From NCBI GenBank assembly GCA_947259355.1, contig CAMYMF010000041.1, positions 1-33,457 of the forward strand: DNA of 33,457 bases, written 5' to 3'. Numbering within the stretch: position 1 is the first letter of the stretch; each line of letters opens with the position of its first letter. Origin of the DNA: an uncultured Nitrospirota bacterium (GTDB taxonomy: Bacteria > CG2-30-53-67). The notes beneath the pieces are model-generated. The model ran no database searches, had not been told where the DNA came from, and worked only from the letters and a program-made list of their open reading frames with translations. Shown here one piece after another: positions 13,847 to 20,745 of the stretch. Position numbers and translations under genes: made by a program.

Positions 13847-14450
13847 TTCCTTTGGGTATGCCTGGATTTCGTTGGAAAGAGCCCCGGTCTGCCCCGGCGC
13901 CGCGGGAAAATTACGCCGTCCCCGTCGAGCCAGAAATAATGTTCAGCCCGGATATTGCATGAGCAAATCTAGTGTGAGGCCGGACTCGTAGCGGCGTCGC
14001 ATTCTGCGAAGACGGATAAACTGCCATATGTGGCGTTGCAACGAATTTCCTCACTTCGAAATATTCCAGTCTTCAGCGAGAAAATTCTCTGCGCCTTGCC
14101 TATGTTGCTTCTACGGCCTCTCGTCACGATCACTTATGCAATATCCGCGCTGGAGACAGCGTGCAGGTGTTGCAAGAAGTATACACTCCTCCGTGTTGCG
14201 GCCACCACAAGCAAGGGCCGGCCGGACCTTTCCAGAGTGACTTTCTGACCCCCGCCAGTCTTGCACTGACTCGTTAAGCTGCTGATATCCTTCATTCTTT
14301 CGACAACGAGGGAGCCCGCCCACAGGTGGAAGGACGCTGTCCGAGTTTTGGCATCGTCCTTGCAGATCCTCCAAATAGAGAAGCATGGATATGTTCATTA
14401 GAGGTGTGCGCCGCACGATGACGCGATATGCGGCCATGGAGGGTTGCATA
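13847..14450. other. 604-base stretch without a convincing gene
   Basis: Several short open frames exist (for example 14028-14240 plus and parts of 14111-14572 minus), but none has a recognisable motif, credible ribosome site or coding-like composition. A GC-rich patch near 13893-13910 contains GGCGCCGCGGG but no T tract, so I do not call a terminator. The stretch probably holds the promoter of the DUF3108-type gene, but no strong -35/-10 pair stands out. Confidence 0.5.
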
Positions 14451-15582: not shown

Positions 15583-16224
15583 CTACGATCTGTTGCTACT
15601 CAATCGGGCAAAGTTCTTTAGGATGGACAGCCCCAGGGCCTGACTCTTCTCCGGATGGAACTGCGTCGCGAAGATATTGTCTTTCCAGATCATTGATGTG
15701 AACTCGACGCCATACTCCGTGCGGGTAGCCACGACCGCCGGGTCTTCGGGATCCACGTAGTAGGAGTGCACGAAGTAGAGATAGGCCCCATCCGGGACGT
15801 CTGCCAACACCGGGGGGGCGCTGAGCTTGCGGATGGCATTCCAGCCCATGTGCGGGATCTTGTAACGCGATTTGGTCCCGCCCTCGGCCCTTTCAAAGCG
15901 GAACTTGCGCACTTTGCCGGGGATGATATCCAGGCCCTCGAAACGGCCGAACTCCTCGCTCTCTGTGAAAAGGATCTGCAGGCCGAGGCAGATTCCCAGA
16001 TAGGGTTTGCCCGCCTCGATGTGTGCCCGAATCGAATCCGTAAGCGAGCGCTCCTCGAGATGGCGCATACAGTCCCGAAACGCACCGACGCCGGGCAGCA
16101 CGACCGCCGACGCGCTCCGGACAGACGCCGGGTCTTGCACCACCCGGGCTGGGGTGCCCACCTTCTCAAATCCCTTCTGGACACTGCGCAGGTTGCCCAT
16201 TCCGTAATCGACAATGGCAATCAT
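15583..16224 (-). CDS. hisH: HisH, imidazole glycerol phosphate synthase glutaminase subunit
   Basis: Class I glutamine amidotransferase that releases ammonia for HisF in histidine and purine-precursor (AICAR) synthesis. The ATG at 16224 has GAGG five bases upstream and gives the standard family start MIAIVDYGMGNLRSV; 213 residues is a normal length. The nucleophile is Cys79 (GICLGLQ). The rest of the catalytic triad is His190 and Glu192 (QFHPEKS). PHMGWNAI (about 124-131) is a typical HisH motif. HisF, its obligate partner, is not in the window. A REC-GAF-GGDEF gene lies 135 bases upstream on the same strand and separates hisH from hisDCB. Confidence 0.97.
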   Translation of the reverse strand: MIAIVDYGMGNLRSVQKGFEKVGTPARVVQDPASVRSASAVVLPGVGAFRDCMRHLEERSLTDSIRAHIEAGKPYLGICLGLQILFTESEEFGRFEGLDIIPGKVRKFRFERAEGGTKSRYKIPHMGWNAIRKLSAPPVLADVPDGAYLYFVHSYYVDPEDPAVVATRTEYGVEFTSMIWKDNIFATQFHPEKSQALGLSILKNFARLSSNRS

Positions 16225-16359
16225 TATCTCCTCGTTCTCTTGTGTTGAGGAGGCCATAGTAGCGATTCGCGCAAACTCTGTCAATCGGGGATTTATTGTG
16301 ACAGCACTTGTTGGTTAGCCTTGGGGTACTTGTTGTGCAGGTAGTTTGCGTGGGGCTCT

Positions 16360-17784
16360 TTATTCCCGAGCGGTCGCGAGGCTGCGTTTGTGTTCGGCTT
16401 TGTTGATGTAAAGGCCGCGGTCTGCAATGCCCACCAGATCGTCCACGGTCTGCACGTTGACGTCGGGGTGTGTAGAGATACCGTGACTGATGATGACGTT
16501 TTCACCGTTGATCGACTCGAAGCGGTGATTCATAATCGCTTCGATAACGCGGCCCGCCTCGCATTCCGCTCCCTTGCGATCTGTTTGGGGCAGCAGAACA
16601 ATGAACTCGTCGCCACCATAACGGGCGACGATATCGCTCTTGCGCACGCGAGTCTTCAGCAAAACGGCCAGTTCCTTGAGAATGCGGTCGCCCGTTCTAT
16701 GTCCGTGGGTGTCGTTGATCTCCTTGAAGTTGTCCACATCGAGCATGATGACGGAGAGCGGGGTGTTGTAACGCTCCGCCCGGTTGAATTCCTCATCGAG
16801 CCTTTTATAGAAATAGCGATGATTGAAGATACCCGTCAGCCCATCGGTGGTGGCGAGGCGCTCCAGATGAATGTTGGCCAGTTCCATCGATTCGAACAGA
16901 GCGGCATTGATCAGAGCATTCGCAGAGGCGTTGGCAACAATCTGGCAGAATTGGATTTCCCGTTCATCAAAGGAACTCCCCCGGCGGGCGGTCCGCAGAA
17001 GAATCGTCCCGATGACGTTCTGTTTCATGATGACCGGTAAGACCAGCAGGGAGTGAATGTTGATGGCTTCGAGATTGTCGCGCACCGTTTCGACGATGGG
17101 GTCACGGTGTATATCGTTGACGACCAGCACCTGCTTAGTGTCCAGCACTTTTCTGATCTCGGGATACTTGTCCAATTCGATGGTCAGGTTGTAAATGTTG
17201 GGGTCCTCGTTAGAGGCGACCACATATCCCTTTTCTGCATTCGTGTCGATTCGGACGATGGAGCAGCGCGCAACGTTGATGATTTCCGATATCTTCTTGA
17301 CGATGGAGTAGAGCACCTCCCGGGAGTCAAGCGAAGAGGTGATGGCATTGCTGATGTCGAGGATGGCCAGGAGGTCTCGCTTCTCCGCTTCCAGCTTGTT
17401 GAACAGTTTTGCCCCTCGGAGCAAGGTCCGGACCCTGGCGAGAAACACGGCTTCGTCAATGGGCTTGATGATGTAATCGTCGGCGCCCGCCTCCAATCCT
17501 TGAACCATATCCTCCTTCCGTCCCATGGCGGTCATCATGAGGATGGGGATCCGTTGCAGCGTCGGATCCTCTTTGATGGTTCGGCAGATTTTGACGCCGT
17601 CGACATCAGGCATGAGCCGATCCAGGATGATCAGATCGGGTTTCTTATGCCGGATACTTCGAAGCCCAGCGGTTCCCTCTCCGGCCTCGAGAACGGCATA
17701 ACCTTCCTTCTCCAGGAAGTTCCGGATGGTCTCTCGTATCAGTTCGTCGTCGTCGACGATAAGGATTCGAATGTCTTCTTTCAT
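16360..17784 (-). CDS. Response-regulator diguanylate cyclase (REC-GAF-GGDEF)
   Basis: Predicted c-di-GMP synthase. The start is set at the ATG at 17784 (474 residues); a TTG directly before it (17787) is possible, and no strong ribosome site is visible for either. REC (about 5-122) has VDDDE, acceptor Asp55 (IILDRLMPD), Thr in MTA and Lys in IKP. A GAF domain (about 148-297) follows. The GGDEF domain (about 310-470) has an intact GGDEF at 390-394. An RxxD inhibitory site (RKSD, 381-384) lies five residues upstream, so activity and product inhibition are both expected. It lies between hisB and hisH on the same strand but has its own promoter, so it looks like an insertion into a his gene cluster. 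Confidence 0.95.
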   Translation of the reverse strand: MKEDIRILIVDDDELIRETIRNFLEKEGYAVLEAGEGTAGLRSIRHKKPDLIILDRLMPDVDGVKICRTIKEDPTLQRIPILMMTAMGRKEDMVQGLEAGADDYIIKPIDEAVFLARVRTLLRGAKLFNKLEAEKRDLLAILDISNAITSSLDSREVLYSIVKKISEIINVARCSIVRIDTNAEKGYVVASNEDPNIYNLTIELDKYPEIRKVLDTKQVLVVNDIHRDPIVETVRDNLEAINIHSLLVLPVIMKQNVIGTILLRTARRGSSFDEREIQFCQIVANASANALINAALFESMELANIHLERLATTDGLTGIFNHRYFYKRLDEEFNRAERYNTPLSVIMLDVDNFKEINDTHGHRTGDRILKELAVLLKTRVRKSDIVARYGGDEFIVLLPQTDRKGAECEAGRVIEAIMNHRFESINGENVIISHGISTHPDVNVQTVDDLVGIADRGLYINKAEHKRSLATARE

Positions 17785-17833
17785 CAAATATGGATGAAAC
17801 CGAAAGAATTTTGCTTTATTTATCGTTATTTTT

Positions 17834-17955: not shown

Positions 17956-18543
17956 TTAGAGCGTCCCTTTTGTGGAGGGCACCCCCGTATTCCGGGGGTC
18001 TAGCGAACAGGCTTGCTCCAGCGCGCGAGCCGTCGCCTTGAATATGGCTTCCAGGATATGGTGCTGATTTTCTCCGTAAATCAGGTTGATGTGCAGGGTT
18101 GCCTTCAGATGGTTGACCAGAGCCCGGAAGAACTCTTCCGCCAGTTCCAGATCAAACTCACCTACTTTGCCGCCGGCCAATTGTGCGCTGAATGTGAGGT
18201 GAGGTCTTCCCGACAGATCGATGGAGACCTGGGCCAGCGTTTCGTCCATGGGAATGGAGGCATGGCCGTAGCGGCGAATCCCTTTCTTGTCGCCCAGACC
18301 TTTCTCAAACGCCTTTCCGAGGCAGATGCCGATGTCCTCAACGGTGTGGTGAAAATCGACTTCCGTGTCGCCGGAGGCTTTGATGGAGAGCTCAAAGAGG
18401 CCGTGGCGCGAGAACAACTCGAGCATGTGGTTCAAGAACGGAACGGGCGTCTGGATATCGTACTGACCCTTTCCATCGATGTGGAGCACGACGGTAATCT
18501 CGGTCTCCTTGGTCTTGCGAACGATCTTGGCTTTTCTCGCCAT
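17956..18543 (-). CDS. hisB: HisB, imidazoleglycerol-phosphate dehydratase
   Basis: Manganese enzyme that dehydrates imidazole glycerol phosphate to imidazole acetol phosphate, the substrate of HisC. The 195-residue monofunctional form lacks the phosphatase domain of enterobacterial HisB. Motifs include [16 protein letters not shown] (about 33-48), the metal-binding [14 protein letters not shown] (about 63-76), [15 protein letters not shown], and the second metal site [18 protein letters not shown] (about 157-174). The ATG at 18543 directly follows the TAG that closes the original hisC reading frame (18546-18544), so translation of hisB was probably coupled to hisC. The hisC frame now ends at 18557. 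Confidence 0.97.
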
Positions 18544-19435
18544 CTATCTTCCTCCCTCAAAGAAGCGCTTCAAAGACGCGAGGAACGCATTGTTCTCGTC
18601 GGGCTTGCCCACCGTGACCCTTAGACACCCGGCCAGGAGACCGGGCTGGTCCAGGTTGCGCACCAGAATGCCGTCGCCGAGGAGGTGCTGAACAGGCATT
18701 GACATTGTATGGTAGCCGCACCTTTTCGAGCTGTGCCACGACCTCGGCGCGCCCCATGAGGAACCCGACACGCAACGCCGCCATGCCGATCTTGGACAAG
18801 GTCCGCAAGACAACTAGACCGGGGTAGCGGGAGAGTTCCTTGAGATAGCCAGCCGTCCCGCTGAAGTCGAGATAGGCCTCATCAAGCACCGTGATACCGT
18901 CAAAGGCATCTAGTATACGGATCACCTGGTCTCTTGCGAAGGCGTTGCCCGTGGGATTGTTGGGCGAGGCCAGAAAGAGAATCTGCGGTTTCTCACGGCG
19001 CGCCACCTCCAGCAGCGTCGTGGTGTCGAGCTCGAAGTTTTCTGTCAGGGAAACGGGGATGGCGCGCTGGCCGAAGGCCGCTGCAATGATGCCGTACATG
19101 GAAAAGGTGGGGCTGGGAAAGAGCACTCCCTTGCCCTGGCCCAAGAAGGTTGTGATCAAATACCCGATGAGCTCATCCGAGCCGTTGCCCAGCAGGAGTT
19201 GGTCCGGGGCTACGCCGGTCATCTCTGCGAGTACTGTTTTGAGCCCGGCCGCGCCCGGGTCGGGATAGCGATTTAAATGAATCCGTTCCAGGGCCTCCCG
19301 GATCTTGAGCGATATCTCGGCCGGAGGGTCATAGGGACTCTCATTGGCATCGAGCTTTACCGGCGCCGCTGTGTGTTCGATGGTATAGGGCGTAAGCGAG
19401 CGGACCTCTGGGCGCAGCAGATCTAGGGGATTCAT
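18544..19435 (-). pseudogene. hisC: HisC, histidinol-phosphate aminotransferase: internal deletion with frameshift
   Basis: PLP-dependent transaminase of histidine synthesis. The ATG at 19435 overlaps the hisD stop (ATGA). The first 247 residues are a normal HisC large domain: KLDANESPYDPP, LGNGSDELI, ASPNNPTGN, DEAYLDFSG, and TLSKIGMAALRVGF with PLP-binding Lys215, up to RLPYNVNA. After codon 247 (18697-18695) the frame reads an unrelated tail, CSAPPRRRHSG and onward, to a stop at 18557. Shifted by one frame, the true C-terminus resumes at once: HLLGDGILVRNLDQPG and LAGCLRVTVGKPDENN, ending at the TAG at 18544. Compared with the family (about 350-370 residues), about 70 codons between the two parts are missing. 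The small domain is therefore largely lost and the product should be inactive. A true deletion and an assembly error cannot be told apart here. Confidence 0.88.
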
Positions 19436-20745
19436 CGGTCGGCCTCGTCTTCTTCGATCGCTTCTTTTCGGATCGACACGGCCCGCGCGTGCCCCGGCAG
19501 CTGTTCCAGTTCCGCCAGTAGGATCGTGTCGTCGCAGACCTTGCGAAAACCATCGCGGGTATAGGAAATGAGGCTGGATCTCTTGTAGAAATCGCCCATG
19601 TGCAGGGGCGAGAAGAAGCGTGAGGTGCCGCCGGTGGGAAGCACATGATTCGGCCCGGCCATGTAATCGCCGATGGGCTCGGCTGAATAGCGTCCCAGGA
19701 AAATGGCCCCGGCATTCTCCAGATCGTCCAGGAGGTCCGAGGGATTCCGGGTCATGACTTCGAGATGTTCCGGACCGATGGCGTTGGCCACCTGCGCCGC
19801 CTCCTGCAGGTGCTTCACCCGGACCATGGTGCCGAAACGTTGGAGCGCTTCTTGCGCGATCTCCCGGCGGGGCAGCGTCTTGAGTTGTTTGTCGAGCGAT
19901 GCCTGAACGTCCTGAATGAGCTGCGCGGAATCGGTCACCAGGATGGCCCAGGCCATCTCATCGTGTTCGGCTTGGGAGAGCATGTCGGCGGCGACAAAAT
20001 CGGGATTGGCCGTCTGGTCGGCGATGATGAGGATCTCGCTCGGTCCGGCGATCATGTCGATATCGACCAGGCCGAAGACGAGCTTCTTGGCCAGGGCCAC
20101 GTAGATGTTCCCCGGTCCCACGATCTTGTCCACCCGGGGGATCGATTCGGTACCGTAGGCCAGCGCAGCCACCGCCTGCGCCCCGCCTACCCGAAAGATC
20201 CTGTCCACCCCTGCAATGCGCGCGGCCGCGGGGACGTAGGGGTTGATCTCTCCTCCCGGTGCCGGGGTGACCATGAGAATCTCCCGGACGCCGGCCACCC
20301 GGGCCGGAATGGCGTTCATCAGCACAGAGGAGGGATAGGCCGCCTTGCCGCCCGGCACATATATGCCCACCCGGTTCAGTGGGCGCACGATCTGGCCGAG
20401 AATGACCCCATCGTCATCCGTGACGGTCCAGCTCTCCTCCCGCTGCCTCTCGTGAAACGCGCGGATTCTGTCAGCCGCGGTTTGCAGAGCGGCCAGGGCT
20501 TTTGGGTCGGCTGCCGCCTCCGCCTGGTCGATCTGCTTGGGCGTCATCTCGACGGTCGATGCATCGAGCGTGAGACGGTCAAATTTCCGGGTCAGCTCAA
20601 AGAGCGCGCGGTCTCCCTTTTCGCGGACTCTGGCGAGGATGGCCCCCACATCTTTGACAACTTTCTTGGGAATGTCGCCGCTGCGGTCCTGAAAGCGTTT
20701 GAGCGTAGCCTCAAACCCCGGCTCCGATGATTCGAACAAATGCAT
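19432..20745 (-). CDS. hisD: HisD, histidinol dehydrogenase
   Basis: Zinc enzyme that oxidises histidinol to histidine in two NAD-dependent steps. The 437-residue length is normal. Visible motifs are VGIYVPGGKAAYPSSVLMN (about 126-144), VGGAQAVAALAYGTE (about 186-200), the family signature DMIAGPSEILIIAD (about 230-243), zinc ligands Gln258 and His261 (SQAEHDE), and the catalytic pair Glu326-His327 (GPEHLEV). The end motif AGPNHVLPTGGTSRFFSPL is also present. It starts 22 bases after dapA and overlaps hisC by four bases, so it belongs to the same operon. Confidence 0.98.
   Translation of the reverse strand: MHLFESSEPGFEATLKRFQDRSGDIPKKVVKDVGAILARVREKGDRALFELTRKFDRLTLDASTVEMTPKQIDQAEAAADPKALAALQTAADRIRAFHERQREESWTVTDDDGVILGQIVRPLNRVGIYVPGGKAAYPSSVLMNAIPARVAGVREILMVTPAPGGEINPYVPAAARIAGVDRIFRVGGAQAVAALAYGTESIPRVDKIVGPGNIYVALAKKLVFGLVDIDMIAGPSEILIIADQTANPDFVAADMLSQAEHDEMAWAILVTDSAQLIQDVQASLDKQLKTLPRREIAQEALQRFGTMVRVKHLQEAAQVANAIGPEHLEVMTRNPSDLLDDLENAGAIFLGRYSAEPIGDYMAGPNHVLPTGGTSRFFSPLHMGDFYKRSSLISYTRDGFRKVCDDTILLAELEQLPGHARAVSIRKEAIEEDEADR

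Follow-up and report, generated by a model that had tools for sequence, protein, structure and literature searches.

The hisC locus

The window, by which we mean the whole stretch of 33,457 nucleotides that was analysed, is contig 41 of the draft genome of an uncultured Nitrospirota bacterium (3.1 Mb, 94 contigs, 89.7% complete), and carries on its minus strand a cluster with the order dapA-hisD-hisC-hisB-[response regulator/GAF/GGDEF]-hisH. It was compared with one genome of the same genus, here called G001, and with four further members of the family. The genes hisD (19432..20745, minus strand; TIGR00069, 551 bits), hisB (17956..18543, minus strand; NCBIfam) and hisH (15583..16236, minus strand; GATase Pfam) are intact, with 90, 93 and 86% identity to G001, respectively, and like dapA they are full length and collinear with that genome. 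Between hisB and hisH lies a response regulator-GAF-GGDEF gene of the diguanylate cyclase type (16360..17787, minus strand; Pfam), which has the same place and length in G001. Other steps of the pathway are encoded elsewhere: contig 4 carries hisF, and probably also hisA, and contig 38 carries hisG. Both hisG and hisF are intact. The original prediction spoke of an otherwise intact his operon with hisD and hisB undamaged; the neighbouring his genes are indeed intact, but the term operon is a loose one for a cluster that includes dapA and a response regulator/GAF/GGDEF gene and that has hisF and hisG on other contigs.

The hisC gene of this cluster (hisC1) occupies positions 18544-19435 of the minus strand. 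Its reading frame opens at 19435 and runs normally for about 249 native codons up to RLPYNVNAC (18690..19435, minus strand; TIGR01141 positions 1-245; 84% amino acid identity to HisC1 of G001), after which it is out of register until a stop at 18557. The open reading frame in the ORF list (18557..19435, minus strand) thus encodes 292 amino acids with about 43 non-native residues at the end. The true C-terminus, GDGILVRNLDQPG...GCLRVTVGKPDENNAFL, is found in a second frame (18544..18689, minus strand; TIGR01141 positions 305-348; residues 309-355 of G001 HisC1 at 83%) and ends at 18544; the native stop (18544-18546) thus abuts hisB, whose ATG is at 18543. The DNA was aligned with the collinear region on contig C56 of G001, which has a hisC of 356 codons. 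The two sequences are about 83-86% identical on both sides of a single gap of 179 nt and show no other break, similarity being resumed immediately on either side of the junction (18689..18690, minus strand). The predicted internal deletion with frameshift, following a normal large domain that reads up to RLPYNVNA and followed by the C-terminus in another frame just before hisB, was thereby confirmed; its size had been overestimated, as about 60 codons are absent instead of about 70.

In the encoded protein the large domain is present, including the PLP lysine K215 in RTLSKIGMAALRVG, which is invariant across six orthologues, and R222. The small domain and the C-terminal arginine (GCLRVTVG) are not in frame, since TIGR01141 positions 246-304 are absent and the remainder is out of frame, and the whole protein scores 247.3 bits against a curated TIGR01141 cut-off of 276.55, compared to 344.8 bits for the G001 orthologue. 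In the enzyme of Mycobacterium tuberculosis, Arg330 anchors the phosphate or carboxylate of the substrate (PMC4703992). Having lost the in-frame GCLRVTVG arginine and some 60 small-domain residues, the HisC1 product would lack both the small domain and the conserved substrate-anchoring residue, and judging from its sequence it is almost certainly inactive. Translation of hisB should not be blocked, because the new hisC stop, 13 nt before the native one, lies just 13 nt upstream of hisB.

Relatives and the state of the reading frame

All five family relatives have a full-length hisC at this position (352-358 codons). The short form is thus confined to this assembly, and a short form shared by the whole lineage, for which the relatives were to be checked, is refuted. 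The comparison also bears on the idea of a programmed frameshift or bypass that would yield a working short HisC, in line with the continued conservation of the C-terminal frame (83%). However, the 60 or so small-domain residues are missing in any frame, the short form was seen in none of the five family members, and predicted RNA folding around the junction is no better than that of shuffled sequences (z -0.73), which makes such an explanation very improbable.

Two other irregularities in the window were noted. At 13847-14384, G001 has an extra yidC-like gene of 499 codons that is missing from the window without a remnant; the suspicion of a second deletion at about 13.8-14.4 kb was dropped in favour of a difference in gene content, as yidC is intact on contig 22. 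At 1378-2499 on the plus strand, a BamD/YfiO-type lipoprotein ORF overruns its usual length by about 120 residues and has an odd tail of low complexity, either through a frameshift late in the gene or through extension by chance.

Apart from the deletion, hisC1 looks like a gene under selection. The dN/dS ratio of its 5' part relative to G001 is 0.134, with values of 0.05-0.23 for 18 neighbouring genes, 0.105 for hisD and 0.05 for hisB. At sites that are invariant in four outgroups, three private changes are found in the window lineage and three in the lineage of G001, and among all sites where an outgroup is matched by one of these lineages alone, the counts are 13 and 11. Relaxed selection before the deletion was considered and rejected, as dN/dS resembles that of the neighbours and the changes are symmetric between the lineages, and even the C-terminal remnant, although out of frame, has kept 83% identity to G001. 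The locus thus has the properties of a recent pseudogene, i.e. a disabling lesion in a gene that is otherwise conserved and that is intact in relatives. Since nothing but the deletion itself has decayed, the lesion is either very recent or not present in the organism at all.

Deletion in the strain or fault in the assembly

The choice between these two possibilities depends on the quality of the assembly around hisC and in general. Frame breaks were surveyed in 445 kb of this genome (G000) against 1.03 Mb of G001, which gave 66 orthologues of at least 70% identity lying wholly inside the sample. A genome with decaying genes in general, or an assembly full of errors, was considered and rejected on this basis: 11 genes of this genome were flagged, but six of these turned out to be antisense ORFs or over-extended starts and four were partial-domain matches or differences in start site, leaving hisC as the only truly split gene. 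The window contains no run of N. No direct repeats that could have caused slippage or collapse by the assembler occur at the hisC junction, where the flanks share a microhomology of 0 to 1 nt and no repeat of k-mer size. A search of the 94 contigs for the missing piece of hisC yielded only one chance-level match with stops, and the bin has neither a second allele nor a fragment of that piece.

Because none of the other orthologues among the 66 is split, no N run is present and the junction has no repeat through which an assembler could have collapsed the sequence, we moderately favour a deletion that truly occurred in the sequenced strain over a local assembly or read fault. An assembly, chimeric-read or gap-closing fault, with an intact hisC1 in the organism itself, is less probable but deserves serious consideration, given the fragmented state of the draft, the fact that the lesion is a single one without any further decay, and the intact hisC in all five family relatives. 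In another genome compared (G002), the second hisC gene described below is split by an assembly break across two contig ends (G002:C17:2-760 and G002:C8:3-395).

A second hisC gene

As alternatives to a sequencing or assembly fault, the original prediction had named the use of another aminotransferase and histidine auxotrophy, and suggested a search for a second HisC-like enzyme. Such an enzyme is present and intact: HisC2, of 358 amino acids, is encoded on contig 47 (L051:3710-4786) between pheA and tyrA-aroA-cmk-ispH (cmk and ispH named by eye), in a cluster for aromatic amino acids, and scores 347.0 bits, over the TIGR01141 cut-off of 276.55. It is kept across the family at 66-87% identity, with a dN/dS of 0.16 relative to G001. 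Its best match in the PDB is the Listeria HisC 3FFH (223 bits), followed by the aromatic aminotransferase of M. tuberculosis, 4R2N (210 bits).

The distribution of the two HisC types was surveyed in 41 genomes. At least seven genomes with an intact hisD (G017, G021, G022, G025, G027, G028 and G034) have no TIGR01141 match over the cut-off other than a HisC2-type protein, and in most of them its gene is a neighbour of tyrA or pheA. In a phylogenetic tree these proteins form a group with HisC2 that is separate from the his-cluster proteins (the clade has an SH-aLRT of 94, and several inner forks are weak). Other relatives have the his-cluster type only, or both. Three genomes (G016, G032 and G040) have only the HisC2 type and no hisD match, so the type also occurs where the pathway seems to be absent. 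Across hisD-keeping lineages, his-cluster HisC and aromatic-cluster HisC2 thus occur singly or together (relatives of HisC2, L248-L266).

Consequences for histidine synthesis

We propose that, in the genome as assembled, hisC1 lost 179 nt inside its small domain with a shift of frame, probably through a deletion that the sequenced strain really carries, and that this loss would be very recent, as what is left of the gene still appears to be under selection. Step 7 of histidine synthesis would then probably be covered by HisC2 of the pheA-hisC2-tyrA-aroA cluster, acting, like the enzyme of Bacillus subtilis, as an imidazole-acetol-phosphate/aromatic aminotransferase of broad specificity. Family, gene context and distribution make such a rescue likely on sequence grounds, and the account as a whole, i.e. 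a recent real deletion with step 7 taken over by HisC2, may well be correct, with the balance tipped just slightly in its favour.

Auxotrophy, which was foreseen as one outcome, need not follow from the lesion, because HisC2 is intact and over the cut-off and because a HisC2-type enzyme is the sole HisC alongside hisD in at least seven other genomes. Alternatively, a strain with a real lesion could be auxotrophic and depend on histidine supplied by its community. The HisC1 product without a small domain would fit this, rescue by aroT-type paralogues is not universal (PMC3896937), and a very recent loss would not yet leave decay elsewhere. Against it stand the intact HisC2 and the maintenance of hisG, hisF, hisD, hisB and hisH, with low dN/dS for hisD and hisB, and we regard auxotrophy as improbable. 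Annotation pipelines would nevertheless score the genome as auxotrophic for histidine, or leave hisC out, despite the second HisC, which calls for caution.

If the preferred reading of a real deletion buffered by HisC2 is right, the locus offers a clean early example of paralogue-buffered gene loss. A wider interpretation, that the lineage has been caught discarding its his-cluster hisC while one aromatic-cluster aminotransferase takes over both pathways, a state that is fixed in several other bacterial groups, is rather speculative and we think it doubtful.

Comparison with known systems

Compared to the his-cluster HisC of TIGR01141, HisC1 of the window shares the position between hisD and hisB and the N-terminal two thirds with the PLP lysine, but it lacks 179 nt of the small domain, is shifted in frame and scores below the cut-off (247 versus 276.55 bits). 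HisC2 has its nearest solved relative in the 3FFH type of Bacillus and Listeria, and its gene likewise adjoins tyrA and aroA; the B. subtilis HisC is classified as EC 2.6.1.9 and listed under aromatic amino acid biosynthesis, with 3FFH as the nearest structure (PMC6522883). It differs from this type in that all members of the family have it together with a his-cluster hisC, and its specificity is a predicted one. The similarity of HisC2 to Rv3772 (4R2N), an aromatic aminotransferase of M. tuberculosis that has no histidinol-phosphate activity (PMC4703992), is almost as high, and the aroT gene of Corynebacterium glutamicum did not rescue a hisC deletion (PMC3896937). In the alignment, however, Val86 of Rv3772 is replaced by Asn in HisC2, and a hydrophilic state at this position was reported in the other homologues aligned by the authors of the Rv3772 study (PMC4703992). 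The locus is not a new kind of system: of the two hisC genes, one has become a null allele of an ordinary sort in recent times, or a fault of the assembly gives it that look.
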